Positions 17,130 to 40,683 of a stretch of 64,000 nt of DNA are shown in pieces. The notes beneath the pieces were generated by a model. It searched no databases. It saw nothing but the letters and a program-made list of their open reading frames with translations, and was not told the origin of the DNA. The translations under genes were made by a program, and so were the position numbers. Origin of the DNA: Mycoplana rhizolycopersici (GTDB lineage Bacteria; Pseudomonadota; Alphaproteobacteria; Rhizobiales; Rhizobiaceae); NCBI RefSeq assembly GCF_013378445.1, contig NZ_JABXYK010000013.1:1-64000 (forward strand), given 5' to 3'. Position 1 is the stretch's first letter. Every line of letters starts with the position of its first letter.

Positions 17130-18029
17130 CTATTCCGGAAGATGGAAGGCACCTCTGAAATAGGCGCGAAATGCCGACATCTGCGGGGAAAATTCGGTGC
17201 TGCGCCGCCAGGCCAGGCCGACGTCCATCGACGGTATGTCGTCCTGGAGCACCAGCGTCTCGATGCGTCTGCCCTCCAGCGACCACGGCCGGTGCACCAT
17301 GTCCGACAGGATCGCGACGCCCTGGCCATTGGCAACGAGCGAACGGACGGCCTCCACCGAGGAAGTGCGCAGCGATATGCTGGGCTGGTAGGGCGTCTGG
17401 GTCCAGTACTTCAGCGAGGTATGCGAAGCCTCGTCCACCGTCAGCATGATATAGGGTTCCTCGGCGACATCCTTCAGGCCGACCGGCCCCACCGACAGAA
17501 GCCTGTGGCGGGCGGGAAGCCACAGGCGGCGCGGAGAACTCAGCAGTTTCTCCGTCTGCAGCTCGGGATTGAGGATGTTCGAGGTCAGCAGCACCGAAAT
17601 GTCGTAGCGGTTGGTCAGCAGCCCTTCCTCGATCGACTCCCGATTGAGCTCGAAGAGCTGGATGTCGAGCCCCGGGAACTGCCGGCGTAACCGCTCGATG
17701 TGATAGGGCAGGAAATAGCCGATGACGGTGTAGGTCGCCGCGACCGTCAGGCGGCCAGTGACTTCGCTGGTCACCAGGTTGAGCTGCTGGGCCTCGGCGA
17801 CCTTCTTCATGATATCATAGGCATGGCCGAGAAACTGCCGTCCGGCAGACGTCAGGTCCATCCCGTGAGGCGTGCGCTCGAAAAGCTGCGCCCCGACCGT
17901 TTCCTCCAGGTCGCGGATCGCCGTCGTCACCGCAGACTGCGAGATCGACAGGTTGACCGCTGCTTGCGAGACCTGCCCGGATTCCGCTGTCGCGATGAAA
18001 TATCTGACCTGTTTGAGACTGAGCGCCAT
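17130..18029 (-). CDS. LysR family transcriptional regulator
   Basis: A 299-residue LysR protein: winged helix-turn-helix at residues ~1-60 (LKQVRYFIATAESGQVSQAA, then SISQSAVTTAIRDLE) and a periplasmic-binding-like effector domain. The ATG at 18029 (MALSLKQVRYF) is the normal LysR start; the open frame upstream lies in the AT-rich control region. It is divergent from pxp1 and most likely activates it in response to the substrate. It is convergent with cysG, 44 bases apart. Confidence 0.9.
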   Translation of the reverse strand: MALSLKQVRYFIATAESGQVSQAAVNLSISQSAVTTAIRDLEETVGAQLFERTPHGMDLTSAGRQFLGHAYDIMKKVAEAQQLNLVTSEVTGRLTVAATYTVIGYFLPYHIERLRRQFPGLDIQLFELNRESIEEGLLTNRYDISVLLTSNILNPELQTEKLLSSPRRLWLPARHRLLSVGPVGLKDVAEEPYIMLTVDEASHTSLKYWTQTPYQPSISLRTSSVEAVRSLVANGQGVAILSDMVHRPWSLEGRRIETLVLQDDIPSMDVGLAWRRSTEFSPQMSAFRAYFRGAFHLPE

Positions 18030-18300
18030 ATCGTAATTCTGGATATCGATCTTTCGTTTTTCAGATACGAGGCCGAAGCATCGGCTCAATTTCTCTCCAG
18101 CGCACCCTTATTTCCGCGCTAAACACTTGAATCAACAACGGATTGTGGTGCTCAGAAAATGGGCGCCATATTCTGATTTTCAGATAATAAACATGAGAAA
18201 TTCGAATTTTTCAAATGCGAAATTTGCGCGTAGCGTCTCCTGACGAAAACGCGTGCACCATCTTGCATTGCAAAAAATACAAGCAGAATGGGAGAGGCTT
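18030..18300. promoter_or_regulatory. Divergent control region between lysR and pxp1
   Basis: An AT-rich 271-base space. It contains a perfect palindrome AAATTCGAATTT (18198-18209) and an inverted repeat TCTGA-ttt-TCAGA (18172-18184); TTTTCAGATA occurs at 18178-18187 and again near 18057-18066, close to lysR. LysR sites are interrupted palindromes in exactly such spaces. Which element is the operator cannot be settled by reading. Confidence 0.6.
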
Positions 18301-19080
18301 TTGGCTCTCGAGGTAGTAGATATCAATTGCGACATGGGCGAGGCTTTCGGGCGCTGGCACGTCGGCGACACCGACGATGCGAGCCTCATGGGCTACATCA
18401 GTTCCGCCAACATCGCTGCCGGCTTTCACGCCGGCGATCCGAACCTGATGGACCAGACGGTTCGCCTCGCGGTGGAGCATGGCGTCGGTATCGGTGCGCA
18501 CCCCGGCTACAACGACCTGCAGGGCTTCGGCCGTCGCCGCATCAACGGCACCTCCCGCGAACTGGTCAACGACATCGCCTACCAGGTCGGCGCGCTGCGC
18601 GAATTTGCGCGCCGCCACGGCGCCCGCCTTCAGCACGTCAAGCCGCACGGCGCGCTCTACATGGAAATGGCAGTCAATCCGGACTTCGCCCAGCAGTTCA
18701 TCACCTACATGCGGACGGTGGCGCCCAACGCATTCGTCTTCTGCATGGCGGGTTCGGCGACGGAGCGTGCGGCGCACGAGGCGGGGCAGCCCGCGATCCG
18801 CGAGTTCTATGCCGATCGCGACTATGATGAGAGCGGCTCCATCGTCTTTACCCGCGACGCGGGCCGGCCGGACCCGGCCGCGATCGCCCGCAAGGTGGTC
18901 CGCGCCTGCGTCGAGGGCAGGGTGACCGCTGTCACCGGCCGCGATATCGAGGTCCCGTTCGAAAGCATCTGCTTCCACTCCGATACGCTCGGCGCATTGG
19001 ACATTGTACGCCACATGCGCGATGCGCTGCGCGCCGAGGGCATTCGCATCGCCCCGGTATCCGAAATCGTCAAAGTTTAA
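18301..19080 (+). CDS. pxpA: PxpA-like protein (LamB/YcsF family), pxp1 cluster
   Basis: A 259-residue member of the LamB/YcsF family, the PxpA subunit of prokaryotic 5-oxoprolinase. Family motifs are VDINCDMGEAFGRW at the N-terminus, ANIAAGFHAGDP and GAHPGYNDLQGFGRR, and VKPHGALY. PxpA is thought to hydrolyse the activated lactam. The TTG at 18301 is chosen because GGGAGAGG precedes it and translation then starts right at the conserved ALEVVDINCDMGE; upstream in-frame residues are unlike the family. First gene of a five-gene operon with biotin carboxylase parts, unlike classical pxpBCA. Confidence 0.88.
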   Translation: MALEVVDINCDMGEAFGRWHVGDTDDASLMGYISSANIAAGFHAGDPNLMDQTVRLAVEHGVGIGAHPGYNDLQGFGRRRINGTSRELVNDIAYQVGALREFARRHGARLQHVKPHGALYMEMAVNPDFAQQFITYMRTVAPNAFVFCMAGSATERAAHEAGQPAIREFYADRDYDESGSIVFTRDAGRPDPAAIARKVVRACVEGRVTAVTGRDIEVPFESICFHSDTLGALDIVRHMRDALRAEGIRIAPVSEIVKV

Positions 19081-19095
19081 TTTCCGGAGAACATC

Positions 19096-19338
19096 ATGAG
19101 CAAGCTCGAGATCAGATCGCCGCTTCCCGGCACTTTCTACCGCAAGCCGTCTCCGGATGCGCCAAACTTCAAATCCGACGGCGATGCCGTCGCCACCACC
19201 GACGTGGTCGGCCTCATCGAGGTGATGAAGACCTTTCACGAGATTCCGGCGGGCATAGAAGGAAGCCGGGTCACGTTCCTGGTGGACGATGCCGAACCGA
19301 TCATGGCAGGCCAGGTGATCGCAGAGGTCGAGGCATGA
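19096..19338 (+). CDS. Biotin carboxyl carrier protein, pxp1 cluster
   Basis: An 80-residue single-domain biotinyl carrier, half the length of AccB because it lacks the N-terminal linker. The biotin site is EVMKTF with Lys45, a variant of the usual AMKM; the flanking strand pattern (RSPLPGTFYRKPSP ... AGQVIAEVEA) is complete. It would carry carboxybiotin between the biotin carboxylase and the PxpB/PxpC-like transferase. It overlaps the next gene by 4 bases. Confidence 0.9.
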   Translation: MSKLEIRSPLPGTFYRKPSPDAPNFKSDGDAVATTDVVGLIEVMKTFHEIPAGIEGSRVTFLVDDAEPIMAGQVIAEVEA

Positions 19339-20720
19339 CGATCCGCTCGCTGCTGATCGCCAATCGCGGCGAGATCGCGGTGCGGATCATCCGGGCGGCC
19401 AAGGCTCTGGGCATCCGCACCGTGCAGGTGCATTCCGCCGCCGACCACGACATGCTGGCCGTCAAACTCGCCGACGAGGCGATCGACATCGGCCCGCCGT
19501 CTGCCGCAAAGTCATATTTGAAGATCGAGGCGGTGATCGCCGCCGCCAGGCAGGCCGGCGTCGATGCCATCCACCCCGGCTACGGCTTCCTGTCCGAAAA
19601 TGCCGCCTTTGCGCAAGCGGTCGAAGACGCCGGCATGATCTTCGTCGGCCCGAAGGCCGGGGCAATCAGCCTTCTCGGCGACAAGGTCGAGGCGCGCAAG
19701 GTCGCCAAGCGTGCCGGGGTGCCGACGGTGCCAGGCAGCGACGGCCGCGTGGACAGCGTCGAGGTTGCCCGCGAGATCGTCGGAAGGATCGGGTTCCCGA
19801 TCATGATCAAGGCCGCCGCTGGCGGCGGTGGCCGCGGCATCCGGATTGCCGAGACGATGGAGGATTTCGAACGTCACTTCCCGCAGGCCTCAGCCGAGGC
19901 GCTCGCCGCCTTCGGCGACGGCGGCCTCTACATCGAGAAGGTGATCACGCGGGCCCGCCACGTCGAGGTGCAGATCCTCGGCGACGGGGAGAATGCCGTG
20001 CATTGCTTCGAGCGAGAATGCTCGCTCCAGCGCCGTCGCCAGAAGGTCTGGGAGGAGGCGCCATCGCATCTCCTGCCCGAGAATGTGCGCACCGCCCTTT
20101 GCGCCAGCGCAGTGGCGCTTGCCCGGGAGGTGAACTACCGCGGCGCCGGTACCGTCGAATATCTCTACGACGAGGTCAGCGGCGAGTTCTACTTCATCGA
20201 GGTCAACACCCGCATCCAGGTCGAGCATCCGGTGACGGAGATGATCACCGGCATCGACCTCGTGGCTGAGATGATCCGCATCGCCGGCGGCGAAAAGCTG
20301 TCCGTTCGCCAGGAAGACATCAAGGTCCACGGCCATGCCATCGAATGCCGGATCAACGCGGAGGATCCGTCCAAGGGCTTCCTGCCGGGACCGGGCACGG
20401 TGGAGAAGCTGGTGGTGCCGGAAGGCGAGGGCATCCGTTTCGACACCATGCTCTACGAGGGCTACACGGTCCCGCCCTTCTACGACTCGCTTCTCGGCAA
20501 GCTGATCGTCTGGGCGGAGACGCGCGAAGCCTGCCTGAAGCGCCTGCAAGACGCCCTGCGCGGCCTCACGATCAAGGGGCTGCCAACGACGGTTCCGCTG
20601 CACTTGGCACTGGCCGGCGACCCGGCCGTGGCAAACGCGGATTTCCATACGCGCTTTCTTGAACAATGGCTTGAAACGGATTTTCCGGCGGCGCTCGCCG
20701 CCCTCGAGGAGGCTGCCTGA
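19335..20720 (+). CDS. Biotin carboxylase subunit, pxp1 cluster
   Basis: A 461-residue ATP-grasp biotin carboxylase of AccC type. Visible are the N-terminal [18 protein letters not shown], the glycine-rich ATP loop KAAAGGGGRGIRI and the catalytic region [20 protein letters not shown]. It carboxylates the carrier biotin with ATP and bicarbonate. Housekeeping AccC is normally next to accB elsewhere, so this copy serves the local pathway. Starts overlap the carrier stop (ATGA) and its stop overlaps the next ATG (TGATG). Confidence 0.92.
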   Translation: MTIRSLLIANRGEIAVRIIRAAKALGIRTVQVHSAADHDMLAVKLADEAIDIGPPSAAKSYLKIEAVIAAARQAGVDAIHPGYGFLSENAAFAQAVEDAGMIFVGPKAGAISLLGDKVEARKVAKRAGVPTVPGSDGRVDSVEVAREIVGRIGFPIMIKAAAGGGGRGIRIAETMEDFERHFPQASAEALAAFGDGGLYIEKVITRARHVEVQILGDGENAVHCFERECSLQRRRQKVWEEAPSHLLPENVRTALCASAVALAREVNYRGAGTVEYLYDEVSGEFYFIEVNTRIQVEHPVTEMITGIDLVAEMIRIAGGEKLSVRQEDIKVHGHAIECRINAEDPSKGFLPGPGTVEKLVVPEGEGIRFDTMLYEGYTVPPFYDSLLGKLIVWAETREACLKRLQDALRGLTIKGLPTTVPLHLALAGDPAVANADFHTRFLEQWLETDFPAALAALEEAA

Positions 20721-21595
20721 TGCCCATGCGCTATTCATTCGGAGGCGACGAGCACCTGTTTGTCGAATGCAGCGAGGACATGTCGCTCGAGGCCTTCTTC
20801 AACAGCCTGTCAATGACGACCGGCATCAAGGAGGCGGGTATCAAGGGCGTGACCGAGATCTGCCCGGCCAACGCCTCCTTCCAGATCAAGTTCGATCCGG
20901 ATGTCATCCATCCCGACGACGTGCTGAGCGAAGTCAAGGCGATCGAGGCTGCGGCTACGAAGGCGGAGCCCGTTATCACCACCCGCATCGTCGAGATCCC
21001 GGTCTTCTACAACGATCCCTGGACACACGAGACGCTGATGCGTTTCCGCGAGCGCCATCAGGACCCGACGGGCACCGACCTCGACTATGCCGCACGCATC
21101 AACAATTACGCCTCGGTCGACGAGTTCATCAGGGCGCATTCCGGTTCGCCGTGGTTCGTATCGATGGTCGGCTTCGTCTCCGGCCTGCCGTTCATGTACC
21201 AGATGGTCGAGCGCAAGCGGCAGATTCAGGTGCCGAAATACCTGCGCCCGCGCACGGACACGCCGCGCCTCACGGTCGGCCATGGCGGCTGCTTCGGCTG
21301 CATCTACTCGGTGCGCGGCGCCGGCGGCTACCAGATGTTCGGCATCACGCCGATGCCCATCTACGACCCCACCCAGCAGACCAGCTATCTGAAGGATTTC
21401 ATGGTGTTCTTCCGTCCGGGCGACATCGTGAAGTTCAAGCCGGTCGACCGCGACGGCTACGACCAGGCGGTGGAAGACGTGGACAAGGGTCGGTTTGCGC
21501 CCCCGATCCGCGAGGTCAGGTTCGACCTGCGCGAGTTCCAGAACGACATCGACGGCTACAACGCAAAGCTGGAGGGCGTGCTCAATGGCCATTAA
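20720..21595 (+). CDS. PxpB-like carboxyltransferase subunit (AHS1/KipI domain), divergent
   Basis: A 291-residue protein of the AHS1 (KipI/PxpB) family, about 60 residues longer than typical PxpB. The N-terminal half matches the KipI N-domain. In the C-terminal domain the usual GFAPGFAYL is replaced by GFVSGLPFMYQM (151-162), the IPAGSVGIAG region by VGHGGCFGCIY (186-196), and SPGGWQLLG by RGAGGYQMFG (199-208). With its partner it corresponds to the transferase domain of urea carboxylase. The changes suggest a substrate other than 5-oxoproline. Overlaps the next gene by 11 bases. Confidence 0.82.
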   Translation: MPMRYSFGGDEHLFVECSEDMSLEAFFNSLSMTTGIKEAGIKGVTEICPANASFQIKFDPDVIHPDDVLSEVKAIEAAATKAEPVITTRIVEIPVFYNDPWTHETLMRFRERHQDPTGTDLDYAARINNYASVDEFIRAHSGSPWFVSMVGFVSGLPFMYQMVERKRQIQVPKYLRPRTDTPRLTVGHGGCFGCIYSVRGAGGYQMFGITPMPIYDPTQQTSYLKDFMVFFRPGDIVKFKPVDRDGYDQAVEDVDKGRFAPPIREVRFDLREFQNDIDGYNAKLEGVLNGH

Positions 21596-22553
21596 GGTTA
21601 TCCATCCCGGCCTTGCCACGACCGTCCAGGACCTCGGCCGCCCGGGCTATTTCCATCTCGGCATTCCCGAAGGCGGAGCGATGGACCGCTTGTCGCTCAA
21701 GGCGGCAAATCTTCTCGTCGGCAATGACGAGGGCGCCGCCGGCCTCGAGGCCGTGTTCATCGGGCCCAAACTCGAATTCACCCGGGATGCAATGGTTGCA
21801 GTCACCGGCGCGGAGATGCCCATCAAGGTCGATGGCGTCGAACAGCCCGGCTGGACTGCCCTTGCCGTGAAGGCCGGACAGGTACTGACGTTCGATTTCC
21901 TCAAGGGCGGGGCACGCATCTACATCGCCGTATCCGGCGGCATCGACGTTCCCACGGCCCTCGGCAGCCGTTCGACCTATCCGATCGGCGCGCTTGGCGG
22001 CTTCAATGGCCGCGCGATCGCCGCGGGTGACGAATTGCCGGTGGGCGAGGCGCGCAAGGCGACCGAAGGAAAATCGATCCCCGAGGCGCTGCGCCGCAGA
22101 CCGGGCATGCCGGCGGAACTTCGCGTCGTGCCTGGCCTCTACTGGCATCGCATCAGCGAACAGGCTGGCAGGAACTTCTTCGAGGACGAATGGAAAGTGG
22201 CGCCCGAGGCCGATCGCATGGGTTATCGCTTCCGCGGCGGCAGGCCGCTCGATTTCGTGCCGCGCGAGCAGCCGTTCGGTGCCGGATCGGATCCGTCCAA
22301 CATCGTCGACAGCTGCTACCCCTATGGTTCGATCCAGGTGCCCGGCGGCACCGAGCCGATCATTCTGCACCGCGATGCCGTCTCCGGCGGCGGTTATTTC
22401 ATGATCGGCACGGTGATCTCGGCCGACATGGACCTGATCGGCCAGATGCAGCCGCATACGCCGACCCGCTTCGTCAAGGTCGATATCGGGACGGCGCTGC
22501 AAGCCCGCAAGGACCGCGCCGCCCTTCTCGGGCAGATCAAGGCGCTGTTCTAG
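21585..22553 (+). CDS. PxpC-like carboxyltransferase subunit (AHS2/KipA domain)
   Basis: A 322-residue AHS2 (KipA/PxpC) family protein with the canonical start IKVIHPGLATTVQDLGRPGY and GIPEGGAMDRLSLKAANLLV. The C-terminal YPYGSIQVPGGTEPIILHRD and SGGGYFMIGTVISADMD are also family features. It pairs with the PxpB-like protein. The ATG at 21585 lies inside the end of the previous gene. It ends the pxp1 operon; no clear terminator is visible in the 96 bases to the convergent GntR gene. Confidence 0.88.
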   Translation: MAIKVIHPGLATTVQDLGRPGYFHLGIPEGGAMDRLSLKAANLLVGNDEGAAGLEAVFIGPKLEFTRDAMVAVTGAEMPIKVDGVEQPGWTALAVKAGQVLTFDFLKGGARIYIAVSGGIDVPTALGSRSTYPIGALGGFNGRAIAAGDELPVGEARKATEGKSIPEALRRRPGMPAELRVVPGLYWHRISEQAGRNFFEDEWKVAPEADRMGYRFRGGRPLDFVPREQPFGAGSDPSNIVDSCYPYGSIQVPGGTEPIILHRDAVSGGGYFMIGTVISADMDLIGQMQPHTPTRFVKVDIGTALQARKDRAALLGQIKALF

Positions 22554-22649: not shown

Positions 22650-23660
22650 TTACTCCATCACGCGGGTGAGGTAGTCGGCGGTAACGCTCGGCCCCGGAAT
22701 GATCGCCACGATCTTCATCTGGGCGATCGTCCGGTTGACCGAGGCGTCGAGATGGCTTTCGAGCATGGCGGCGGCGGCGGCAACCGCCCCGCGCATCAAC
22801 AGTTCCACCACGAGCCGCAGCTCGGTGATGAGGATAGGCTCGCCGGGCAGGCCGAGACGGCGCAGCAGGCGCTCGGTCGCGGCCACCGGCAGCAGGTTGT
22901 TTGCGATGAGATCGCGCAGCTTCTCGTTCGGCGTCGACAGGACACAGGTTTCGATGAAGCGCGTCTGGATATCCTCAGGGTCGCGCTGGACGTCGAGCGC
23001 ATGCAGCTTCTCAAGTTCGGCGAGGCGATCGAAGAGCCGCTTCAGCGCATCGCGATCGAGGTGCGGCGCACCGGTGATCAGCGCCTGGGGCTCGAGCATC
23101 TTGCGCAGGACGAAATGTTCCTTGACCGTCTGCGCCGTCAGCGGTCCTGCCACCCAGTGGGAACTCTGGTTCTTACGAACCAGGCCCCGTTCGCTCAGGC
23201 GGCCCAGAACGTCGCGCACGACCGTTCGGCTGACGTTGAAGTGGCTGGCAAGCTCGGTTTCGATGATCCTGTACTGCCCGAAGACAACACAGCCGGCGAC
23301 GTCCTTCTCGACCGTGTTGTAGATCCGCTCCCAGGAGGAACGGCTCTGCAGCGCTTCGTCAACGTGCTGGGGAACGACGAGGCCGATCGACTTGATGTCG
23401 ACGCGGTTCGGCTCAACGCGCTCCCCGCCGGGACCGACAAGGAAGCCGCGCCCCTTGAAGCGCGACACCAGTCCCTCGGACTCCAGCGTTTGCAGCGCGC
23501 GCTGCACCGGGGCGCGCGAAATCTGCAGGATCTCGGCAATCGGGCCCTCCAGCAGCACCAGACCGGCCGGAAGCGTGCCCTCGACAATATTCTTCCGCAG
23601 CACGTGCTCGGCAAGTTCGTAGCGACGCTGCGTACTCTGTCCGGTCCGGTTGTCGGCCAT
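22650..23660 (-). CDS. GntR-type regulator with two winged helix domains and FCD-like domain
   Basis: A 336-residue protein (from the ATG at 23660). It holds two GntR winged helices in a row: residues 14-76 (YELAEHVLRKNIVEGTLPAG, ISRAPVQRALQTLESEGLVS) and 110-171 (ERIYNTVEKDVAGCVVFGQY, VSRTVVRDVLGRLSERGLV). A helical FCD-type ligand domain follows (175-325). FadR-family proteins normally have one winged helix and ~230 residues. In-frame ATGs at 23699 and 23720 are possible but no start has a strong ribosome site. Divergent from the long transporter operon, so a likely regulator of it. Confidence 0.82.
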   Translation of the reverse strand: MADNRTGQSTQRRYELAEHVLRKNIVEGTLPAGLVLLEGPIAEILQISRAPVQRALQTLESEGLVSRFKGRGFLVGPGGERVEPNRVDIKSIGLVVPQHVDEALQSRSSWERIYNTVEKDVAGCVVFGQYRIIETELASHFNVSRTVVRDVLGRLSERGLVRKNQSSHWVAGPLTAQTVKEHFVLRKMLEPQALITGAPHLDRDALKRLFDRLAELEKLHALDVQRDPEDIQTRFIETCVLSTPNEKLRDLIANNLLPVAATERLLRRLGLPGEPILITELRLVVELLMRGAVAAAAAMLESHLDASVNRTIAQMKIVAIIPGPSVTADYLTRVME

Positions 23661-24188
23661 GAAATCAAGATACCTTCGCTCTGGCGCCCGAGTGGTCATC
23701 CGTTTGTACGCGATCTGCAATTGAAGTTCGATAGACGACTATAAATGCATTTTGCATACATCATTGACAAGAAGGATTGACGCAATTCGGCGCCGATTGC
23801 GCTGAAAACGGGACATCGCGCCGCGCGCAGAATGCGCGCGGTGCGGATGTGTGCGCGAAATGCGCGCCAAAGAGGCGATAACGTGCGCGTTCTCGAGGCG
23901 CATCGGCGCGTCCGCCGACAAGCCTGCCAACTTCTGCTCCAACAATGCAAAAAATTCAAAAAAGTCTATTGAGTACAAAAATCATTTATGTATTCTAGAT
24001 CACAACAAGCGCGCCGCTCAGAAGCGCGGGGAACTGAACACAGATTTTAACTTTGGTGGAATCATTCGATCGTGCGCGGAACGCCTGCGTGCGAGCGCTA
24101 TCGGCTTGTCGCCGTTCGGTCGTCACTGGCTGAACGAACGGATTGTCGTTGCCGGATGCATGCCGCCTGCAAACTGGCAGGATGAACA
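23661..24188. promoter_or_regulatory. Control region ahead of the long transporter operon
   Basis: About 500 bases without a supported gene. Near the regulator is ATGCA-ttt-TGCAT (23745-23757), an inverted repeat suited to a GntR operator. The middle is rich in GCGC motifs. TTGAGT (23969-23974) and TATTCT (23991-23996) with 16-base spacing could be a promoter for the ABC operon. Nothing coding is supported. Confidence 0.45.
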
Positions 24189-25262
24189 GTGTCGGCCGTG
24201 CTTCAACTTTCCAATGTCGTGAAGACCTATGGTGACCTGAGGGCGCTCGACGGGATCGACCTGTCCCTGCCTGACGATTCCTATGTCTCGCTGCTGGGGC
24301 CGAGCGGCTCCGGCAAGACCACGCTGCTGCGCGTGATCGCGGGTTTCGAACCGCCGGAAGGCGGCACAATCCGGTTTTCCGGCAAGGATGTAACCAACAC
24401 GCCGCCGCACGAGCGTAATATCGGCTTCGTCTTCCAGAACTTTGCCTTGTTTCCGCATCTGTCGGTCTACGACAACATCGCCTTCGGACTGGTCAATCGT
24501 GCAGTGGATCCGGTCACCGACCCGAAGCTGGTGGACAGGAAGGTGCGCGACATGATTTCACTGGTCGGGCTCACGGGTCTCGAAGGCCGCGCCACGACCC
24601 AGATCTCGGGCGGCCAGAAACAGCGCGTCGCGCTTGCGCGCACGCTCGTCACCGAGCCGCAGATGGTCCTGCTCGACGAGCCGCTGGGTGCGCTGGACGC
24701 CAACCTTCGCGCCCGCATGCGCAGCGAACTGCGCATGATCCGCGAACGTTGCGGCGTGACCTTCCTGCATGTGACCGGCAGCGAGACCGAGGCGCTCGCC
24801 ATGGGCGACACCGTGCTCGTGCTCGACCGGGCGCGCATCGCCCAGCAGGGCGATTCCGACACCATCTACAACCGCCCCTGTTCGCCGGCCGTGGCCCGCT
24901 TCCTGAACTGCTACAACCTGTTCTCGGGCAAGATGGCCGATGGCGGATTTGCAACTGCGCAGGGGCTGCTTGGCTTCCAGGGACAGCCGCAAAGGGCTGC
25001 CGATCCTGCCTATGCCATCCGCTACGACCGCGTCGACATCCGCCCGGCAGGGGCGGCTGTGACCGGAGACGAGGTGCAGATCGAGGGCACTTTCATCGCC
25101 AGCGAATACACCGGCTCGGCCGTCAACGCCTTCTTTTCGCTGGACGACGGAAAGGTGTTCGAGGTGGAGGCGCATCTCAGCCACCGGGCGCCGGAAAATC
25201 ACGAACCGCACAGGCGCTACGCGCTGGCCTGGAAGAGGGAGGACGCCCTTGTCTTCGCTTGA
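24189..25262 (+). CDS. Polyamine-type ABC ATPase lacking the switch histidine
   Basis: A 357-residue PotA-like ATPase. Walker A GPSGSGKTT (37-45), Q-loop region FVFQNFALFPH, signature ISGGQKQR and Walker [12 protein letters not shown] are intact. The H-loop is not: the usual VTHDQEEA reads VTGSETEA, with Gly197 in place of the switch histidine, confirmed in the DNA (GTG ACC GGC at 24771-24779). Losing this residue normally cripples hydrolysis. A second, complete ATPase is encoded in the same operon at 30015. A GTG start at 24189 begins the conserved N-terminus. A TOBE-like C-terminal domain follows. Confidence 0.9.
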   Translation: MSAVLQLSNVVKTYGDLRALDGIDLSLPDDSYVSLLGPSGSGKTTLLRVIAGFEPPEGGTIRFSGKDVTNTPPHERNIGFVFQNFALFPHLSVYDNIAFGLVNRAVDPVTDPKLVDRKVRDMISLVGLTGLEGRATTQISGGQKQRVALARTLVTEPQMVLLDEPLGALDANLRARMRSELRMIRERCGVTFLHVTGSETEALAMGDTVLVLDRARIAQQGDSDTIYNRPCSPAVARFLNCYNLFSGKMADGGFATAQGLLGFQGQPQRAADPAYAIRYDRVDIRPAGAAVTGDEVQIEGTFIASEYTGSAVNAFFSLDDGKVFEVEAHLSHRAPENHEPHRRYALAWKREDALVFA

Positions 25263-25310
25263 ACCGAATGCACGCCGCTGCCTCCCAGCCCGTTCGCGGA
25301 GAATTGCGAG

Positions 25311-26210
25311 ATGACCATGACCGCCGTCACCGAAGAAATCAAAACCGAGAAGGCTGCGGCCAAAAGCTCGTCTGGCAAGACGCTGTGGCTGCTTGCGCCG
25401 GGCGTGCTGTGGATGCTGCTCTTCCTCGTCCTGCCGCTCGCGATGATGCTCTATGTGTCGTTCTGGACGCAGACCACCTTCAAGATCGAGCCGACGCTGA
25501 CGCTGAAGAGCTGGATCACCTTCTTCACCTCCGACACCTATCTGGGCGCGCTGTGGACCACCGTGCGGATCTGGCTGATCGTGCTCGCGGCCACGGTCGT
25601 GGTCGGCTATCCGGCAGCCCTTTTCGTCGGGCTGTTCGTCAAGAACAAGACGCTGCAGACCGTCCTGCTGGTGCTGTGCGTCATACCGTTCTGGACCTCG
25701 TTCCTCATTCGCGTGCTGGCCTGGCGGCCGATGCTCGGCAAGGAGGGCGCGATCAACATGATCCTGATGAAGATCGGCATCATCAGCCAGCCGATCGAGG
25801 TGCTGCTCTTCTCCGAGCTCTCCGTCATCATCGGCATGACGCAGATCTACTGCGTTTTCATGGTCGGCCCGATCGCCTTCATGCTCGGCCGCATCGATCC
25901 CTCGATCATCGAAGCCGCCAAGGATCTCGGCGCAGGCTTCTGGCGGATTTTCCGCACCATCATCCTGCCGCTTTCCATGCCGGGCGTCGTGGTCGGCGCC
26001 ATCTTCGTCTCGGTCATGGTTCTCGGTGAATTCGCTACGTCGGCCGCACTTTCGGGCCGCAAGGTGAACCTGCTCGGCAACATCATCGTCACCCAGGTCG
26101 GATCGCTGAAATGGGCCTTCGCGGCGGTCGCCGGCGTCGTCCTCACCATCCTCATGGGCGCAGTCGTCGCGGCTCTCCTGCGGGTCGTCGATCTCAGGAA
26201 GGAGCTCTGA
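25311..26210 (+). CDS. ABC transporter permease, PotB type
   Basis: A 299-residue permease with six predicted membrane helices, first at residues ~25-45 (LWLLAPGVLWMLLFLVLPLA). The ATPase-contact loop is IIEAAKDLGAGFWRIFRTI. It starts 48 bases after the ATPase gene and ends two bases before the second permease, so they are co-translated. Confidence 0.92.
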   Translation: MTMTAVTEEIKTEKAAAKSSSGKTLWLLAPGVLWMLLFLVLPLAMMLYVSFWTQTTFKIEPTLTLKSWITFFTSDTYLGALWTTVRIWLIVLAATVVVGYPAALFVGLFVKNKTLQTVLLVLCVIPFWTSFLIRVLAWRPMLGKEGAINMILMKIGIISQPIEVLLFSELSVIIGMTQIYCVFMVGPIAFMLGRIDPSIIEAAKDLGAGFWRIFRTIILPLSMPGVVVGAIFVSVMVLGEFATSAALSGRKVNLLGNIIVTQVGSLKWAFAAVAGVVLTILMGAVVAALLRVVDLRKEL

Positions 26211-26212
26211 TC

Positions 26213-27058
26213 ATGAACGCAAGCGGCATCAAGTTCGGCCTCGGCGTCTACACCACGCTCTTCCTCGTCTTCCTGTACGGCCCGCTGGTCGTGCTTGCCA
26301 TCCTGTCGTTCCAGACGGGTCCGGAGGGCGGGCCGCAGTTTCCGATCATCGAATGGTCGACCTACTGGTACAAGCATCTCTTCGGCCTCACGCCCCCCTC
26401 GCGCATCGCACCGCTGCCGATCGACCAGGGGCTCGGCCGCTCGATGCTTCTGGCGATGATGACCATGGTGGTTTCCACCATCCTCGGCGTCACCGCAGCA
26501 CAGGCCTTTCGGCGCAGGTTCACCGGTTCCGGCGTGGTCTTCTATCTGATCGTGCTCGGCATGATGGTCCCTGGCGTGCTCGTCGGTCTCGGTATGGCAC
26601 TGGTCGCCAACACGCTCGGCATCGAGCGCCACTGGTGGGGCACGGCGTTCGTCCTGCACGTCGTCTATACGTTCCCCTTCGCCTTCCTGGTGATGCTGGC
26701 AATCTTCAACCGCTTCGATTCCAGCGTCGAGGAAGCCTCCTGGTCGCTCGGCGTCAGCCCGGCCCGCACCTTCAGGAAGATCACCTTCCCGCTGATCTTC
26801 CCGGGCGTCCTGTCGGCAATGCTGTTCGCCTTCACGCTCTCCTATGACGAGTTTTCCCGCACGCTCTTTGCGTCCGGCCGCGACCTGACGCTGCCGCTCG
26901 CCATCTACGGCACCTTCTCGGTGGAGGTGCACCCCAACGTCTTCGCCTTCGGGGTCCTGACCACGCTGTTCTCGTTCGCGCTGCTTAGCGTCTACGCGGT
27001 ACTGATGGGCCTCTCCGTCCGCCGCGCCAAGCGTATCGCCGTCCAGGAGGAAGCATGA
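26213..27058 (+). CDS. ABC transporter permease, PotC type
   Basis: A 281-residue permease with the EAA-type loop SSVEEASWSLGVSPARTFRK. The ATG at 26213 comes two bases after the first permease stop; the frame is open further upstream inside that gene. Its stop overlaps the start of the first SDR gene by 4 bases. The loop differs from that of the partner permease, which would let each permease dock a different ATPase. Confidence 0.92.
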   Translation: MNASGIKFGLGVYTTLFLVFLYGPLVVLAILSFQTGPEGGPQFPIIEWSTYWYKHLFGLTPPSRIAPLPIDQGLGRSMLLAMMTMVVSTILGVTAAQAFRRRFTGSGVVFYLIVLGMMVPGVLVGLGMALVANTLGIERHWWGTAFVLHVVYTFPFAFLVMLAIFNRFDSSVEEASWSLGVSPARTFRKITFPLIFPGVLSAMLFAFTLSYDEFSRTLFASGRDLTLPLAIYGTFSVEVHPNVFAFGVLTTLFSFALLSVYAVLMGLSVRRAKRIAVQEEA

Positions 27059-27795
27059 TGTCCGGCATATCCACCATCGTTACCGGCGCGGGGTCGGGCA
27101 TCGGCCGGGCGATAGCCGAACGGCTTGGCGCCGACGGCTACAGGGTCCTCGTGAACGACCTCTCGCCTGAGCGCGCCGAGACGGTCGCTGCCGGCATCCG
27201 GGCCAGGGGCGGCGCCGCCGTCGCCTTCGCCGGCGATGTCTCTTCGGAGGCGGACACAGCTTCGATCCACACGGCGGCCGTGAAAGCGCATGGCACGGTA
27301 GGCCTTCTGGTCAACAATGCCGGCATCGCCCACCAGGCGCTGTTCGAAAATCTCGAAGTCCGCGACTTCGACCGCATGTTCGCCGTGCATGTCCGTGGCA
27401 CCTTCCTGATGACCAAGGCCGTTCTCGGCCCGATGCTCGCAGCCGGAAAGGGGTCGATCATCAATATCGCCTCGCAGCTCGGCCAGATCGGCGGCATCGA
27501 GCTTGCCCACTATTCCGGTGCCAAGGCGGCGATCATCGGCATGACCAAGTCGCTGGCCCGCGAGGTGTCGAACCGCGGCGTCCGCGTCAATGCCGTGGCA
27601 CCCGGGCCGATCAACACGCCACTGGTGATGGAACTCTCGCCGGAATGGCGCGAGCGCAAGAAATCCGAACTGCCGCTCGGCCGCTTCGGCGAACCGGAGG
27701 AAGTGGCCGCAACCGTCGCGTTCCTCGCGTCCGACGAAGCAAGTCTGTTCGTCGGCCAGACGCTCGGCCCGAACTCCGGCGACGTCATGCTGTGA
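27055..27795 (+). CDS. Short-chain dehydrogenase/reductase
   Basis: A 246-residue classical SDR. Cofactor motif TGAGSGIG (10-17), NNAG (87-90), and catalytic S140, Y153 and K157 (YSGAK) are all present. It would oxidise or reduce an alcohol/ketone with NAD(P). FabG-like annotation is common for such proteins, but the position inside a transport operon points to a catabolic role on the imported compound. Confidence 0.88.
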   Translation: MMSGISTIVTGAGSGIGRAIAERLGADGYRVLVNDLSPERAETVAAGIRARGGAAVAFAGDVSSEADTASIHTAAVKAHGTVGLLVNNAGIAHQALFENLEVRDFDRMFAVHVRGTFLMTKAVLGPMLAAGKGSIINIASQLGQIGGIELAHYSGAKAAIIGMTKSLAREVSNRGVRVNAVAPGPINTPLVMELSPEWRERKKSELPLGRFGEPEEVAATVAFLASDEASLFVGQTLGPNSGDVML

Positions 27796-27808
27796 AGGAA
27801 TGGAAAAC

Positions 27809-28576
27809 ATGTCAGCAAGAGAAAAGCGCATCGTTATCGTCACCGGGGCCGGGATCGGCATCGGTCAGGCCGCAGCAAAGGCGTTCGCCGCGATCGGCGA
27901 CCATGTCGTCGTTACCGACATTCTGGAAAAAGAAGGCAGGGAAACGGTCGATGCGATCACGGCGTCGGGCGGCTCCGCCGAGTTCCAGCACTATGACGTC
28001 CGCTCAACCGAGCGAACCGATGCGTTGGTCGCCGATATCGAGAAGCGGTACGGCAGGATCGACGTCATAGTCGCCAATGCCGGCATCGCCCATAGAACCC
28101 CGCTTGCCCAACTGACGGACGAGAAGTGGGACCTGACCTTCGACATCGACCTGAAGGGCATTTTCCGACTGGTCCGCGCCGCCGCACCCAGCATGCGGGC
28201 CCGCAAGTCGGGCAGCATCGTCGCCCTCTCTTCGATCATGGGCATTGCGTACGGCTGGGACGAGCATGTCCACTATTCGGCAGCCAAATCCGGCGTGATC
28301 GGCCTGGTGCGCGGACTGGCAGTCGAGCTCGCCCGCGACGGCGTGCGCGTCAATGGCATCGCGCCCGGCTACATCCGCACAGCCCAGCTGCTTTCGGAGG
28401 AAAACTCGCTCGGTCCGGCCGGCGCCGAGAAGGCGGCCGAATTCATCCCGATGGGGCGGCTCGGCACGCCCGAGGACATCGCGGATGTCATCGCATTCCT
28501 GGCCTCTGAGGCCGCGAGATACATGACCGGCCAGGTGCTGGTCGTGGATGGTGGCCTCCTCGTGGGGCGGTACTGA
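27809..28576 (+). CDS. Short-chain dehydrogenase/reductase
   Basis: A 255-residue classical SDR with TGAGIGIG near residue 12, NAG, catalytic serine in ALSSIMG (S141/S142) and Y156-x3-K160 (YSAAK). It ends with the usual ...GQVLVVDGGLL. The ATG at 27809 is preferred over 27800 because GAAGGA lies 9 bases upstream. It is distinct from the SDR just before it, so two successive oxidation/reduction steps or two substrates are likely. Confidence 0.88.
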   Translation: MSAREKRIVIVTGAGIGIGQAAAKAFAAIGDHVVVTDILEKEGRETVDAITASGGSAEFQHYDVRSTERTDALVADIEKRYGRIDVIVANAGIAHRTPLAQLTDEKWDLTFDIDLKGIFRLVRAAAPSMRARKSGSIVALSSIMGIAYGWDEHVHYSAAKSGVIGLVRGLAVELARDGVRVNGIAPGYIRTAQLLSEENSLGPAGAEKAAEFIPMGRLGTPEDIADVIAFLASEAARYMTGQVLVVDGGLLVGRY

Positions 28577-28587
28577 ACCGCACTGAA

Positions 28588-28609
28588 GGCCGGAACGGAA
28601 TGTCCGGCC
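28588..28609 (+). other. Hairpin ahead of the binding protein gene
   Basis: GGCCGG (28588-28593) pairs with CCGGCC (28604-28609) across a 10-base loop. A second short hairpin, CGCTCC-gg-GGAGCG, follows near 28630-28643. Neither has a T run. They lie in the 98-base gap before the binding protein gene and may mark an RNA processing or stability boundary. Confidence 0.5.
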
Positions 28610-28674
28610 GGTGACGGCAATCAAGAGGGCGCTCCGGGGAGCGTTCCTGGGAACAACCAAAACTGGAGAAGAGA

Positions 28675-29907
28675 ATGTCCAAGATGGAAATCAATCGCCG
28701 CTCGCTCCTGAAGCGGTCTGCAGGTGCCATGGCGCTCGCCATGGGCGCGGGTACGCCCTTCCTGTCTTCACGCCTGGCCTACGCTCAGGCAGCCGACCTG
28801 GCCAGCCAGCAACTGCGTACGATCGGCCTTTCCACGACCGTTCAGGAACGCATTCTCGAAACCTTCAAGGAGAAGTATGGCGTCGGCTCCGTATCCGGAA
28901 CGGCCTCCACCTTCCCCGATGCGCAGACCAAGATCCTTTCCGGCTCGAGCGACTACGATTGCTGGGAAATCATTGCCGAACGTCTTCCCTCGATCGTCAT
29001 GACCGAAAATGTCGCGCCCATTCCGGCGGCGGAACTGAAGAACTGGAACAGCATCCGCGATACGTTTACCACCGCAAGCGACAAGTGGGACCGCAGCGCC
29101 CAGATCGTCGGCCAGATCTGGACGGACGAGACGCAGACCATGCTGAACATGGTGCCGACCGTCTACAACTACGACTCCATCGGCTACAACCCCGACGTCC
29201 TCTCCGAAGAGGAGGCCAACACCTGGACCGCGATCTTCGATTCCAAGTGGCGCGGCAAGTCCGGCCTGAACACCGATCCGCTGATCGCCATCGGCCAGGC
29301 CATTCTCGCCATGAACTCGCTGGGCATGCTGGAAGCCAAGAACCCCGGCAACCCGACGGCTGAAGAAATCGATGAAGCGGCAGCCTTCCTCATCTCCAAG
29401 AAGAAGGATGGCCAGTTCCGCGCTCTCTGGGGCGATTTCGGCGAACTCGTCAACTTCATGGCTTCGGGCGAAATGGTCGTCTGCGATGCCTGGCAGCCTG
29501 CCGTCATGGCGGTCAAGGCGCAGGGCAAGCCGGCCCGCTATGCGGTTCCGAAGGAAGGCACCCGCGGCTGGGCGATCGGCCCGTCGATGATCGCCTCCAC
29601 CAAGAGCCGCGAGGCCGTCATCGCCTATGCCGACTACTGGCTCTCCGGCGAGCCGGGCATCACCGTCTCCGAGCAGGGCTACTATTCGCCGTCCACCAAC
29701 ATCAAGAACGCGATGTCTCCGGAGAAATATGCGTTCTGGTACGAGGGCAAGCCCTGGGTTGGCGCGGCCGAACGCGGCATCAAGGAAGGCGACCTGCGCG
29801 ACGGCGGTTCGCTCGAAGAGCGCTCGCAGAAGGTCGCCTACTGGCACCAGTGGCCGGATGAATACGACCACCTCGTGCAGAAGTGGGACGAGTTCCTGAA
29901 CGCATAA
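28675..29907 (+). CDS. ABC transporter substrate-binding protein, PotD type, Tat signal
   Basis: A 410-residue periplasmic binding protein. The N-terminus is twin-arginine-like (NRRSLLKRS, R8-R9), followed by a mild hydrophobic core and a cut near AYAQA/ADL at residue ~39, so it is probably exported folded. The remainder is a PotD-like fold. It serves the permeases upstream. Its own flanking hairpins suggest separate mRNA stability. Gap of 107 bases to the next ATPase gene. Confidence 0.9.
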   Translation: MSKMEINRRSLLKRSAGAMALAMGAGTPFLSSRLAYAQAADLASQQLRTIGLSTTVQERILETFKEKYGVGSVSGTASTFPDAQTKILSGSSDYDCWEIIAERLPSIVMTENVAPIPAAELKNWNSIRDTFTTASDKWDRSAQIVGQIWTDETQTMLNMVPTVYNYDSIGYNPDVLSEEEANTWTAIFDSKWRGKSGLNTDPLIAIGQAILAMNSLGMLEAKNPGNPTAEEIDEAAAFLISKKKDGQFRALWGDFGELVNFMASGEMVVCDAWQPAVMAVKAQGKPARYAVPKEGTRGWAIGPSMIASTKSREAVIAYADYWLSGEPGITVSEQGYYSPSTNIKNAMSPEKYAFWYEGKPWVGAAERGIKEGDLRDGGSLEERSQKVAYWHQWPDEYDHLVQKWDEFLNA

Positions 29908-31124: not shown

Positions 31125-31164
31125 ACATCTCAAACAGAAAAGCACCACAGAAGGAGACTTACCC

Positions 31165-32046
31165 ATGGCGAAGGAAATTTTCTGCAGCTTCGGCATCGAC
31201 GTCGATGCCGTCGCGGGCTGGCTTGGTTCCTATGGCGGCGAGGATTCGCCCGACGACATCTCGCGCGGCCTCTTTGCCGGCGAGGTCGGAAGCCCCCGGC
31301 TGCTGAAACTCTTCGAACGTTTCGGCATCAAGACGACCTGGTTCATCCCCGGACACTCGATCGAAACCTTCCCCGAGCAGATGCAGGCCGTGGCCGAAGC
31401 CGGCCACGAGATCGGCATTCACGGCTACACGCACGAAAATCCGATCGCGATGACGCGCGAGCAGGAAACCGAAGTGCTCGACAAGTGCATCGAACTCGTG
31501 ACCAAGCTCTCGGGCAAGCGGCCGACCGGCTATGTGGCGCCGTGGTGGGAATTCTCCAACGTCACCAACGAACTCCTGCTGGAGCGCGGCATCAAGTACG
31601 ACCACTCGCTGATGCACAACGACTTCACGCCCTACTACGTGCGTGTCGGCGACAGCTGGACCAAGATCGACTACTCCAAGAAGCCCTCGGACTGGATGGT
31701 CCCGCTGAAGCGCGGCCAGGAAACCGATCTCATCGAAATTCCGGCATCCTGGTACCTCGACGACCTGCCGCCGATGATGTTCATCAAGAAGTCGCCGAAC
31801 AGCCACGGTTTCGTCAACCCGCACGATATCGAGCAGATGTGGCGCGACCAGTTCGACTGGGTCTACCGCGAGATGGACTATGCCGTCTTCCCGATCACGA
31901 TCCATCCCGACGTCGCCGGACGCCCGCAGGTTCTGATGATGCTGGAACGGCTCTATGCCTACATGATCAAGCATCCTGGCGTGAAGTTCGTCACCATGAA
32001 CGAGATCGCCGACGACTTCGCCAAGCGCTTCCCGCGCAAGAAGTAA
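31165..32046 (+). CDS. Polysaccharide deacetylase-family (NodB-type) hydrolase
   Basis: A 293-residue cytoplasmic NodB-fold protein. The N-terminal aspartates D12 and D14 (GIDVD) and the zinc-binding H86-x3-H90 (HGYTH) are present. Absence of a signal peptide and the length are like the PuuE-type allantoinases and related amidohydrolases rather than cell-wall deacetylases. It would cleave a C-N bond in the imported compound. The ATG at 31165 follows AAGGAGA. It sits 40 bases after the ATPase gene. Confidence 0.85.
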
Positions 32047-34746: not shown

Positions 34747-34764
34747 TTGCCGAGGAATGACAAG

Positions 34765-36111
34765 ATGAAATCGATCGCCCAGCTTTCAACGCTCATCCAG
34801 GCCGTTCAGTTGGACCCCGTCGCGCTTGCCGAGGAGACCATCGCCGGCATCGAGGCCTATTCCGACAAGGCCGTTTTCACAAGGCTGACCAGGGACCGCG
34901 CACTGGCCGAAGCCCGCGCCGCATCCGCCCGCATCCGCGACGGGCGGTCGCTTGGCGCGCTCGACGGCATTCCGATCGCCTGGAAGGACCTGTTTGCAAT
35001 GGAAGGCCTGCCGACAACGGCTGGATCGAAGGTTCTGGCGAACGACCCTCCCGCCGAGGCCGATGCGGCCGTGGTCGCCTTGCTCAAGGCAGCGGGCATG
35101 GTCAGCGTCGGCCGCGTCAACATGAGCGAGTTCGCCTTTTCCGGCCTCGGTATCAATCCGCACTACGGCACGCCGGCCAATCCCGTATCCAGCGACGGCC
35201 ACCGGCTGCCGGGCGGCTCTTCGTCGGGCTCCGGCGTCGCAGTGGCGGCAGGGCTGGTGCCGGTCTCGATCGGGACCGACACCGGCGGCTCCGTTCGCAT
35301 CCCTGCCGCCTTCAACGGCATTGTCGGTTACAAGGCGACGCGCGGCCGCTATTCGATGCAAGGCGTGTACCCGCTGTCGAAGAGCCTCGATTCGCTTGGT
35401 CCTCTCTGCCGCACGGTCAAGGATGCTGTCCTGATCGATGCCGCAATGCGCGGTCTGACAGCGTCTTCGGTTACGGCGCGCAGCGTTAAGGATCTCGCCC
35501 TGCTGGTCCCGGAAACCGTCATGTTCGACGGTGCCGAGCCCGAAGTCGTCGCCAGTTTCGAAGCCGCCCTGGGGCGCCTCCGGGCGGCAGGCGCAAAGAT
35601 CCGACGGTCTCCGGTGCCGGTTTTTGCCGAGATCTTCGAACTCATGGCGAGGCACGGAGCGCTGGTGACCGCGGAAGCCTATGCGCTGCATCAGGCCCGT
35701 CTTGCAGGCGCGGAAGCGGACGGAATGGATCCGCGCGTCGTGGCGCGCGCGCGGCTGGGCGCCAATATCTCGATGCCCGACTATATTGCCACGCTTGACG
35801 CCCGCGAGCGCCTGATCGCCCGGATGGCCGATATCCTGCGGCCCGGCGAACTGATCGCCTCGCCGACGCTGCCGCACGTTGCGCCGAAAGTGGCGCCGCT
35901 CATTGCCGACGACGATGCCTTCTTCGCGATGAACGGCAAGACCTTGCGCAATACCCTGATCGGCAATTTCCTCGACTGGTGCGGGGTATCGCTGCCGTGC
36001 GGCCACGGTGCGCATGGCATGCCCGTCGGTTTCCTGCTGTCAGGGCTTGCGAACACCGATGAATTGCTGCTCGGCCATGCGCTTGCCGCGGAAGAAATCA
36101 TCCGCGGCTAG
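34765..36111 (+). CDS. Amidase signature family enzyme
   Basis: A 448-residue amidase. The Ser-cisSer-Lys triad is visible: K74 (AWKDLF), serines in GGSSSGSG (150-157) and nucleophile S176 in TDTGGSVRIP. It hydrolyses an amide to acid plus ammonia. It carries no signal peptide. The ATG at 34765 follows GAGGAA. It is the last gene of the operon and the likely ammonia-releasing step for the imported compound. GatA homologues share the fold but lack this context. Confidence 0.9.
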   Translation: MKSIAQLSTLIQAVQLDPVALAEETIAGIEAYSDKAVFTRLTRDRALAEARAASARIRDGRSLGALDGIPIAWKDLFAMEGLPTTAGSKVLANDPPAEADAAVVALLKAAGMVSVGRVNMSEFAFSGLGINPHYGTPANPVSSDGHRLPGGSSSGSGVAVAAGLVPVSIGTDTGGSVRIPAAFNGIVGYKATRGRYSMQGVYPLSKSLDSLGPLCRTVKDAVLIDAAMRGLTASSVTARSVKDLALLVPETVMFDGAEPEVVASFEAALGRLRAAGAKIRRSPVPVFAEIFELMARHGALVTAEAYALHQARLAGAEADGMDPRVVARARLGANISMPDYIATLDARERLIARMADILRPGELIASPTLPHVAPKVAPLIADDDAFFAMNGKTLRNTLIGNFLDWCGVSLPCGHGAHGMPVGFLLSGLANTDELLLGHALAAEEIIRG

Positions 36112-38246: not shown

Positions 38247-38281
38247 AATCGACATAAAGCGTGCGTTCAATGGGGTGCGAC

Positions 38282-40679: not shown

Positions 40680-40683
40680 ACCG

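Follow-up and report, generated by a model that had tools for sequence, protein, structure and literature searches.

The bacterial 5-oxoprolinase PxpABC opens its cyclic substrate in an ATP-dependent manner, and it is assumed to phosphorylate that substrate (PMC13274462). In the urea amidolyase of Kluyveromyces lactis, K1605 of the carboxyltransferase (CT) active site is most likely the essential general base, and the K1605A mutation severely inhibited the isolated enzyme (PMC5770610). Aspergillus nidulans possesses a "urea carboxylase" of 1,241 residues (P38095) as well as a urease (PMC3073912). The HyuAB/CapAB/OplBA enzymes use ATP to open lactams, hydantoins and 5-oxoproline (PMC8453981), and Lombard and Moreira (2011) noted split urea-carboxyltransferase-like gene pairs, none of which had then been studied (PMC3199775). 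Here we analyzed a set of five adjacent plus-strand genes, hereafter pxp1, in a 64,000-nucleotide stretch of Mycoplana rhizolycopersici DNA (the window), which lies on contig C13 (NZ_JABXYK010000013.1); the genome measures 5.6 Mb and is assembled into 78 contigs. We consider it likely, on the basis of the sequence, that pxp1 encodes a split, biotin- and ATP-dependent hydrolase of cyclic amides (lactams). Among the open-access papers listed in literature searches, we recognised no description of the five-gene set as a biotin-dependent lactamase. The initial annotation had suggested a possibly undescribed carboxylase, which is to be qualified because the A. nidulans genes lamA and lamB are a genetic precedent on 2-pyrrolidinone. 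Richardson et al. are said to have reported in 1992 that both genes are needed to convert 2-pyrrolidinone to gamma-aminobutyrate (GABA). P38095 is presumably lamA, and we know of no enzymology of LamA/LamB.

The five genes of pxp1 are as follows.

18301 to 19080, plus strand: PxpA/LamB-YcsF-family ring-opening hydrolase, 259 residues, TTG start (PF03746, NF003814, start context)
19096 to 19338, plus strand: stand-alone biotin carboxyl carrier protein, 80 residues, EVMKT site (PF00364, NF005457)
19335 to 20720, plus strand: biotin carboxylase (BC), 461 residues (PF00289/PF02786/PF02785, NF009471)
20720 to 21595, plus strand: carboxyltransferase half C/D (CT_C_D, "PxpB"), 291 residues, urea-carboxylase type, with K173 (PF02682, TIGR02712, tree, residues, model)
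21585 to 22553, plus strand: carboxyltransferase half A/B (CT_A_B, "PxpC"), 322 residues (PF02626, TIGR00724, tree)

All five reading frames are present, open and intact, and the expected Pfam domain was matched in every protein. The existence of the set, including the motifs named in the initial annotation, was thus confirmed. The description of the genes as overlapping holds for three junctions (4, 1 and 11 nt), but 15 nt lie between the PxpA and carrier genes. The TTG start of pxpA at 18301 is immediately preceded by GGGAGAGG, and a GTG at 18253 is a possible alternative start.

The gene neighbourhood was compared with that of classical pxpBCA across genomes, as had been proposed with the initial annotation. 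Scanning GTDB genomes with an alignment whose lead sequence is a haloarchaeal member gave at least 585 confirmed relatives among at least 597 stretches. The named loci are the best 80 by similarity to the haloarchaeal member, with at most 10 kb on either side of each, and come from haloarchaea, Actinomycetota, Bacillota, Chloroflexota, Burkholderiales and Grimontia. Together with 14 alphaproteobacterial loci they make 94 loci, which were set against 59 controls. The controls are 20 classical loci, out of 24 PxpB places above the TIGR00370 cut-off (at least 154 bits), and 39 loci of fused urea carboxylase, all from Pseudomonadota (37 of the 38 from one scan, plus two more). Flanks of about 10 kb were searched for the named loci, 8 kb for the alphaproteobacterial and classical loci, and 5 kb for the urea carboxylase loci. 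All five pxp1 genes occurred together in 70 of the 80 named loci, and four of the ten exceptions are loci shorter than 12 kb that end at contig ends. The same was true of every alphaproteobacterial locus (14/14, from 14 of 15 other genomes, G087 being left out). The window's own class gave a strong match in 16 of 289 genomes, its own included (E = 1.6e-159 or better). In a search of close relatives, 15 of 61 genomes, again including its own, matched at 63% identity or more, and BC and CT_A_B genes flank the match in each of the other 14. The gene order is B-C-carrier-BC-A in Bacillota and A-carrier-BC-B-C in Proteobacteria, and BC is on the opposite strand in several haloarchaea. Given this variation by lineage, the association has been kept through rearrangement. 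PxpA is present in 75 of the 80 named and all 14 alphaproteobacterial sets. Classical loci had PxpA in 19 of 20 cases, BC in one (L274), and this kind of carrier in none. An amidase was found in 24 of the 39 fused urea carboxylase loci, and PxpA in none of these Pseudomonadota loci within about 5 kb. A fused bacterial LamA next to PxpA, considered as a possible bridge, was likewise found in none of them.

The protein at 20720-21595, which had been read as a divergent PxpB, is instead a carboxyltransferase half of the urea-carboxylase type. It scored 116.6 bits against the urea carboxylase model TIGR02712 versus 67 bits against the PxpB equivalog TIGR00370, below the cut-off of the latter (145.55). 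Its top sequence matches in the PDB were two K. lactis proteins, urea carboxylase (E = 8.5e-16) and urea amidolyase (E = 1.6e-15). An AlphaFold model built from 39 sequences (mean pLDDT 86.7) was compared with pdb entries by Foldseek; the K. lactis urea amidolyase/carboxylase was the best match (TM by query 0.79), and PxpB-type proteins reached a TM of at most 0.59. The CT_A_B protein matched PF02626 (E = 3.2e-89) and TIGR00724 (262.3 bits, cut-off 230.2), and scored 221.5 bits against the PxpC equivalog NF045499, below the cut-off of 500. Against TIGR02712, the pxp1 parts gave partial matches of 514.2, 235 and 116.6 bits on separate genes, below the cut-off of 1303.85.

Quick LG+G4 trees of CT_C_D (n = 82) and CT_A_B (n = 85) placed both halves with urea carboxylase. 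The CT_C_D tree was split (SH-aLRT 99) into 22 rows, namely classical PxpB, a second biotin-linked system of the window and its two plasmid relatives, and 60 rows comprising urea carboxylase, pxp1 and eight divergent rows. In this tree pxp1 forms one clade with four neighbouring second copies (100; pxp1 alone, 88), and the window sequence falls within an alphaproteobacterial group (100). In the CT_A_B tree, pxp1 and five second copies form one clade (100), which is joined by urea carboxylase and divergent rows at 96, with the classical rows outside. The second system of the window lies outside the classical rows there, adjoining them on long branches with L274, the only one of the 20 classical-type loci with BC nearby.

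Eleven residues of CT_C_D are common to pxp1 and urea carboxylase and differ from the classical majority: D99, N128, P157, K173, Y174, T179, T181, G187, G202, Y204 and Q205. Residues specific to pxp1 are A52, where urea carboxylase and the classical proteins have Arg, A201, where they have Pro, and W101-T102. The motifs GFVSGLPF, VGHGGCFGCIY and RGAGGYQ, which had been taken as changed core motifs, are indeed present as residues 151-158, 186-196 and 199-205. They are, however, not idiosyncratic: G151, F152, G155, L156, P157, G187, G189, G190, F192, G202, G203, Y204 and Q205 are invariant among 39 aligned sequences (the window and 38 chosen relatives). Position 173 aligns with K1605 of the K. 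lactis urea amidolyase, as counted along the alignment. It is Lys in all 96 pxp1 rows (one of them a second copy from L080), all 39 urea carboxylases, all six further second copies and all eight divergent rows. It is Arg in classical PxpB (19/19) and in sequences of the second-system kind (3/3), and Arg also occupies this place in Bacillus subtilis KipI, Pyrococcus horikoshii PH0987 and the Mycobacterium smegmatis chain. No other single observation argues as strongly as this pattern for carboxylation by pxp1. On the proposed reading, Lys or Arg at position 173 would separate carboxylating from phosphorylating PxpBC-like pairs.

Second CT_C_D/CT_A_B pairs occur inside seven pxp1 loci (L067, L075, L080, L088, L097, L101 and L117), all with the lysine. 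In the CT_A_B tree the five from Bacillota (L080, L088, L097, L101, L117) stand together, and the actinobacterial L067 and L075 are nearer to urea carboxylase. L255 and L290-L295 are divergent alphaproteobacterial CT pairs with 28-37% identity to the window protein, several per genome in two genomes; some have BC, PxpA, BioY, an aminotransferase or an aldehyde dehydrogenase (ALDH) nearby.

Coupling to biotin, as the initial annotation had it, is supported. The carrier scored 123.3 bits against NF005457 (cut-off 87) and carries the normal biotinylation motif EVMKT; the MK pair is present in all 92 carriers read across the 94 loci. BC scored 765.6 bits against NF009471 (cut-off 686), and its closest solved relatives are biotin carboxylases. 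The biotin transporter BioY is near 13 of the 94 pxp1 loci and none of the 59 controls; within 8 kb, the difference from urea carboxylase loci has p = 0.011, the loci not being independent. On an Acidiphilium plasmid, bioB adjoins pxp1. The initial annotation would have been contradicted by an acyl-CoA carboxylase with its CT partner elsewhere, and this was looked for. A search of the source genome with PF01039 (Carboxyl_trans) found four places and no spare partner: two stand beside their own large BC genes (contigs C9 and C5), and two others look like AccA and AccD from their size and partial profile matches. Contig C2 has an AccC-like BC with its own carrier. Since each of the four places has a likely partner of its own, a partner elsewhere for the pxp1 carrier and BC was rejected. 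NF005457 and NF009471, the "acetyl-CoA carboxylase" equivalogs whose cut-offs these two proteins pass, probably misname pxp1-type carriers and carboxylases widely.

The PxpA protein matched PF03746 (E = 3.9e-89) and the PxpA subfamily NF003814 (294.5 bits, cut-off 226), and scored below the cut-offs of all three PxpA equivalog models. Its polar frame (N9, D11, E14, H43, D46, H67, D72, H116, H226 and D228) is kept in 90 of 90 pxp1 sequences. All 18 classical and all three second-system sequences have Arg at position 184, whereas none of the 90 pxp1 sequences does; T, E, A, D, V, S or Q replaces it there (T184 in the window). R173 is lost in 51 of 90. The loss of Arg184 may mean that the protein no longer holds the carboxylate of 5-oxoproline. 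We know of no role of PxpA other than ring opening.

On these grounds the following reaction is proposed. BC would charge the biotin of the small carrier with CO2, using ATP and bicarbonate, a step read from the protein families. The CT pair (20720-21595 and 21585-22553) would then transfer the CO2 to the nitrogen of a lactam's amide group, K173 acting as the general base, as the CT type and the lysine suggest. PxpA would open the N-carboxy-lactam to an N-carboxy amino acid, and this may lose CO2 spontaneously. The net reaction would be lactam + ATP + H2O to omega-amino acid + ADP + Pi, with CO2 as a recycled activator. We infer the order of the steps, the lactam as substrate, the ring opening by PxpA and the spontaneous decarboxylation. 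N-carboxylation followed by PxpA-type ring opening, the pathway sketched in the initial annotation, remains the best reading in view of the CT type, the lysine and the PxpA frame. Its further suggestion of a substrate other than 5-oxoproline gains support from K173, from a PxpA without Arg184 and from scores below the PxpB and PxpC cut-offs. As a whole, the initial annotation is partly supported and was for the most part correct. With less confidence, but still on balance, we regard pxp1 as a separate class of lactam hydrolase with a range that spans haloarchaea and proteobacteria. Such a class would cleave otherwise unreactive cyclic amides with CO2 carried on biotin as a recyclable activator, in place of the phosphorylation assumed for PxpABC.

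A hint at a substrate was found in Grimontia (L123), where the order is pxpA-carrier-BC-CT-CT-ALDH-aminotransferase and the CT_A_B stop overlaps the ALDH start as ATGA. The ALDH scored 717.3 against the succinate-semialdehyde dehydrogenase (SSADH) model TIGR01780 (cut-off 646.35), and the aminotransferase 534.2 against the GABA transaminase model TIGR00700 (cut-off 506.65). Since the operon runs into SSADH and GABA transaminase, the likeliest candidate in Grimontia is a gamma-lactam, for instance 2-pyrrolidinone, which would yield GABA; the genes fit a route from 2-pyrrolidinone through GABA to succinate. L083 also has a GABA transaminase above the cut-off (562.2). A class-III aminotransferase is near 19 of the 94 pxp1 sets, none of them among the 14 alphaproteobacterial ones, and near none of the 59 controls. 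The source genome has a GABA transaminase above the cut-off on another contig. A relative of molybdenum (Mo)-enzyme large subunits is near 31 of the 94 sets, a link that is only suggestive. A single substrate for all pxp1 loci was rejected, since the neighbourhoods differ. On plasmid pRHL2 of Rhodococcus jostii RHA1 (L050), pxp1 stands beside a bacterial microcompartment locus with an aldehyde dehydrogenase and a phosphotransferase.

Several observations weigh against the proposed lactam hydrolase. In the PxpA tree (78 rows), the classical proteins form one group (90), and pxp1 is not one clean clade (5 label changes). Arg is found at position 185 in 56 of 90 pxp1 PxpA sequences, so that the lost arginine might be partly replaced. 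The second system of the window has BC and carrier, yet the classical Arg at 173, which means that BC and carrier are not always paired with the lysine; L274, the classical locus with BC nearby, gave no CT_C_D row and thus stands outside the Arg count. The loci are not independent, and the searched flanks were unequal between the sets. Tested against only the classical loci, the BioY difference within 8 kb falls short of significance (p = 0.12), and 2 of the 20 classical loci likewise have a Mo-enzyme gene nearby (p about 0.06 versus classical). There are no GABA genes among the window's annotated neighbours. Bacillus loci (L102) have a different type of aminotransferase and ALDH and a CO-dehydrogenase-like Mo enzyme, and the Haladaptatus set adjoins a cytosine permease, a Zn hydrolase, an amidohydrolase and an LLM flavin enzyme. 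The neighbourhoods vary by lineage, which speaks against one common substrate.

Other explanations were weighed against these data. It is improbable, in our judgement, that pxp1 is a split carboxylase of urea or of an open-chain amide or ureide, coupled to a hydrolysis other than that of lactams, or that its substrates are cyclic ureides with rings like those of hydantoin or pyrimidines. The carboxyltransferase is closest to urea carboxylase, the Haladaptatus neighbours would suit such a role, and hydantoinase/oxoprolinase A and B genes adjoin the Methylobacterium set. The window itself has an amidase at 34747-36111, 12 kb from pxp1. Biuret and allophanate hydrolases are among its relatives of known structure, and it scored 201.4 bits against the allophanate hydrolase model TIGR02713 (cut-off 511.05). 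However, PxpA, which is not known to act other than in ring opening, accompanies 75/80 and 14/14 of the sets and 0/39 of the urea carboxylase loci, the pxp1 clade is distinct from the urea carboxylases, and Grimontia has GABA-pathway genes. An ordinary ATP-dependent 5-oxoprolinase PxpABC to which BC and carrier are merely adjacent seems quite unlikely. Although PxpA passes its subfamily cut-off, the Pfam domains are identical, and RefSeq gives the first gene of related plasmid loci the name 5-oxoprolinase PxpA, CT_C_D has 67 bits where PxpB requires 145.55 and Lys where the classical protein has Arg at 173; both CT halves fall with urea carboxylase in the trees, R184 of PxpA is missing in 90 of 90, and BC and carrier remain with the set across archaea and bacteria. 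We consider it very unlikely that the set closes rings or fixes CO2 into a true N-carboxylated metabolite: the carboxyltransferase by itself would yield an N-carboxy product, but the conserved frame of PxpA is intact in 90 of 90, and the neighbours in some loci (transaminase, SSADH, transporters) look catabolic. That carrier and BC are acyl-CoA carboxylase subunits, as the above-cut-off matches to NF005457 and NF009471 would have it, is hardly credible, since these NCBIfam names are based on family resemblance, the four Carboxyl_trans places each have a likely partner and an AccC-like BC with carrier is on C2. The split lactam hydrolase remains the preferred reading.

The genes flanking pxp1 are as follows.

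17130 to 18089, minus strand: LysR-family regulator, divergent (PF00126/PF03466)
22650 to 23720, minus strand: GntR-family regulator (PF00392/FCD; equivalent position in Rhizobium johnstonii pRL12)
24189 to 29907, plus strand: polyamine-type ATP-binding cassette (ABC) transporter and two short-chain dehydrogenases (SDRs) (Pfam, reading frames, gene order as in R. johnstonii pRL12)
24189 to 25262, plus strand: transporter ATPase (Pfam)
25311 to 26210 and 26111 to 27058, plus strand: transporter permeases (frames and matching order in R. johnstonii pRL12)
27055 to 28576, plus strand: the SDRs (Pfam)
28675 to 29907, plus strand: transporter binding protein (Pfam)

The LysR gene is the probable regulator of pxp1, and one adjoins pxpA also on plasmids of R. 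johnstonii, Agrobacterium, Acidiphilium and Methylobacterium. The ABC transporter possibly takes up the substrate of pxp1. By order and annotation, the window and R. johnstonii pRL12 have in common the LysR and GntR genes, the ABC transporter, the two SDRs, a deacetylase and a CobW/GTP-binding protein; these common genes do not identify the substrate. The window's polysaccharide-deacetylase family protein (31150-32046) gave a strikingly close, gap-free match over 294 residues (529.5 bits) to 3QBU/4LY4, "peptidoglycan deacetylase". Because of this near match, its candidacy as a cyclic-imide hydrolase, for which the allantoinase PuuE is a relative, was dropped. We take 3QBU/4LY4 to be a Helicobacter pylori protein. 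Annotated polysaccharide deacetylases are near pxp1 on R. johnstonii and Acidiphilium plasmids.

The second biotin-linked set of the window, at 38261-42393, consists of PxpA and two fusion proteins, PxpB-PxpC and BC-carrier, its CT having the classical Arg. On plasmids of Klebsiella and Shinella, the operons of related loci also include an NRAMP transporter and a putative hydro-lyase, as presumably does the B. subtilis pxp operon. The source genome also has three hydantoinase/oxoprolinase A (PF01968) places (C13:117370, C10:123615 and C1:554075), so that 5-oxoproline or hydantoins may go through other enzymes.

If the proposal holds, pxp1 would add a biotin-dependent way in which stable cyclic amides, 2-pyrrolidinone for example, can be opened. 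This would bear on the cycling of nitrogen and on lactams of the nylon and solvent types. A widespread misannotation would also be set right: related plasmid records carry the labels 5-oxoprolinase PxpA and acetyl-CoA carboxylase and, for one pxp1 gene, allophanate hydrolase. The residue at position 173 would serve as a test predicting which PxpBC-like pairs are carboxyltransferases. The biochemistry of fungal lamA/lamB, unexplained as far as we know, would become testable in easily expressed bacterial subunits.

Among the known systems, urea carboxylase (TIGR02712; K. lactis amidolyase 5I8I and carboxylase 3VA7) resembles pxp1 in its BC, CT_A_B, CT_C_D and biotin carrier, in the carboxylation of an amide nitrogen, as proposed for pxp1, and in K1605, the counterpart of K173, with ten further residues. 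It differs in being one chain, whereas pxp1 has separate subunits and forms its own clade, and in its partner, an allophanate hydrolase, in the place of which pxp1 appears to have PxpA. PxpABC (B. subtilis, Corynebacterium glutamicum, and Escherichia coli YbgJK/YbgL) has in common with pxp1 the PxpA family, the CT-domain pair and, as proposed, the ATP-dependent ring opening. Unlike pxp1, the classical loci lack BC (19/20) and this carrier (20/20) and have Arg at 173 and at PxpA 184. Activation by CO2, as proposed for pxp1, would parallel the phosphorylation assumed for classical PxpABC (PMC13274462). The M. smegmatis pair MSMEG_0435-0436 (9YX5, 3MML) resembles pxp1 in the CT-domain pair but has Arg at the K173 place; by the title of 9YX5, this PxpBC-like pair was bound to a long-chain acyl-CoA carboxylase complex, so that an Arg-type pair touches a biotin enzyme there. 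HyuAB/CapAB/OplBA belong to another protein family, described as dissimilar to PxpABC (PMC8453981), and work without biotin. LamA and LamB of A. nidulans differ from the separate genes of pxp1 in that the fungal LamA is one fused chain. To judge by their parts, a BC-CT-carrier protein and a LamB/YcsF hydrolase, they are the closest precedent for pxp1.

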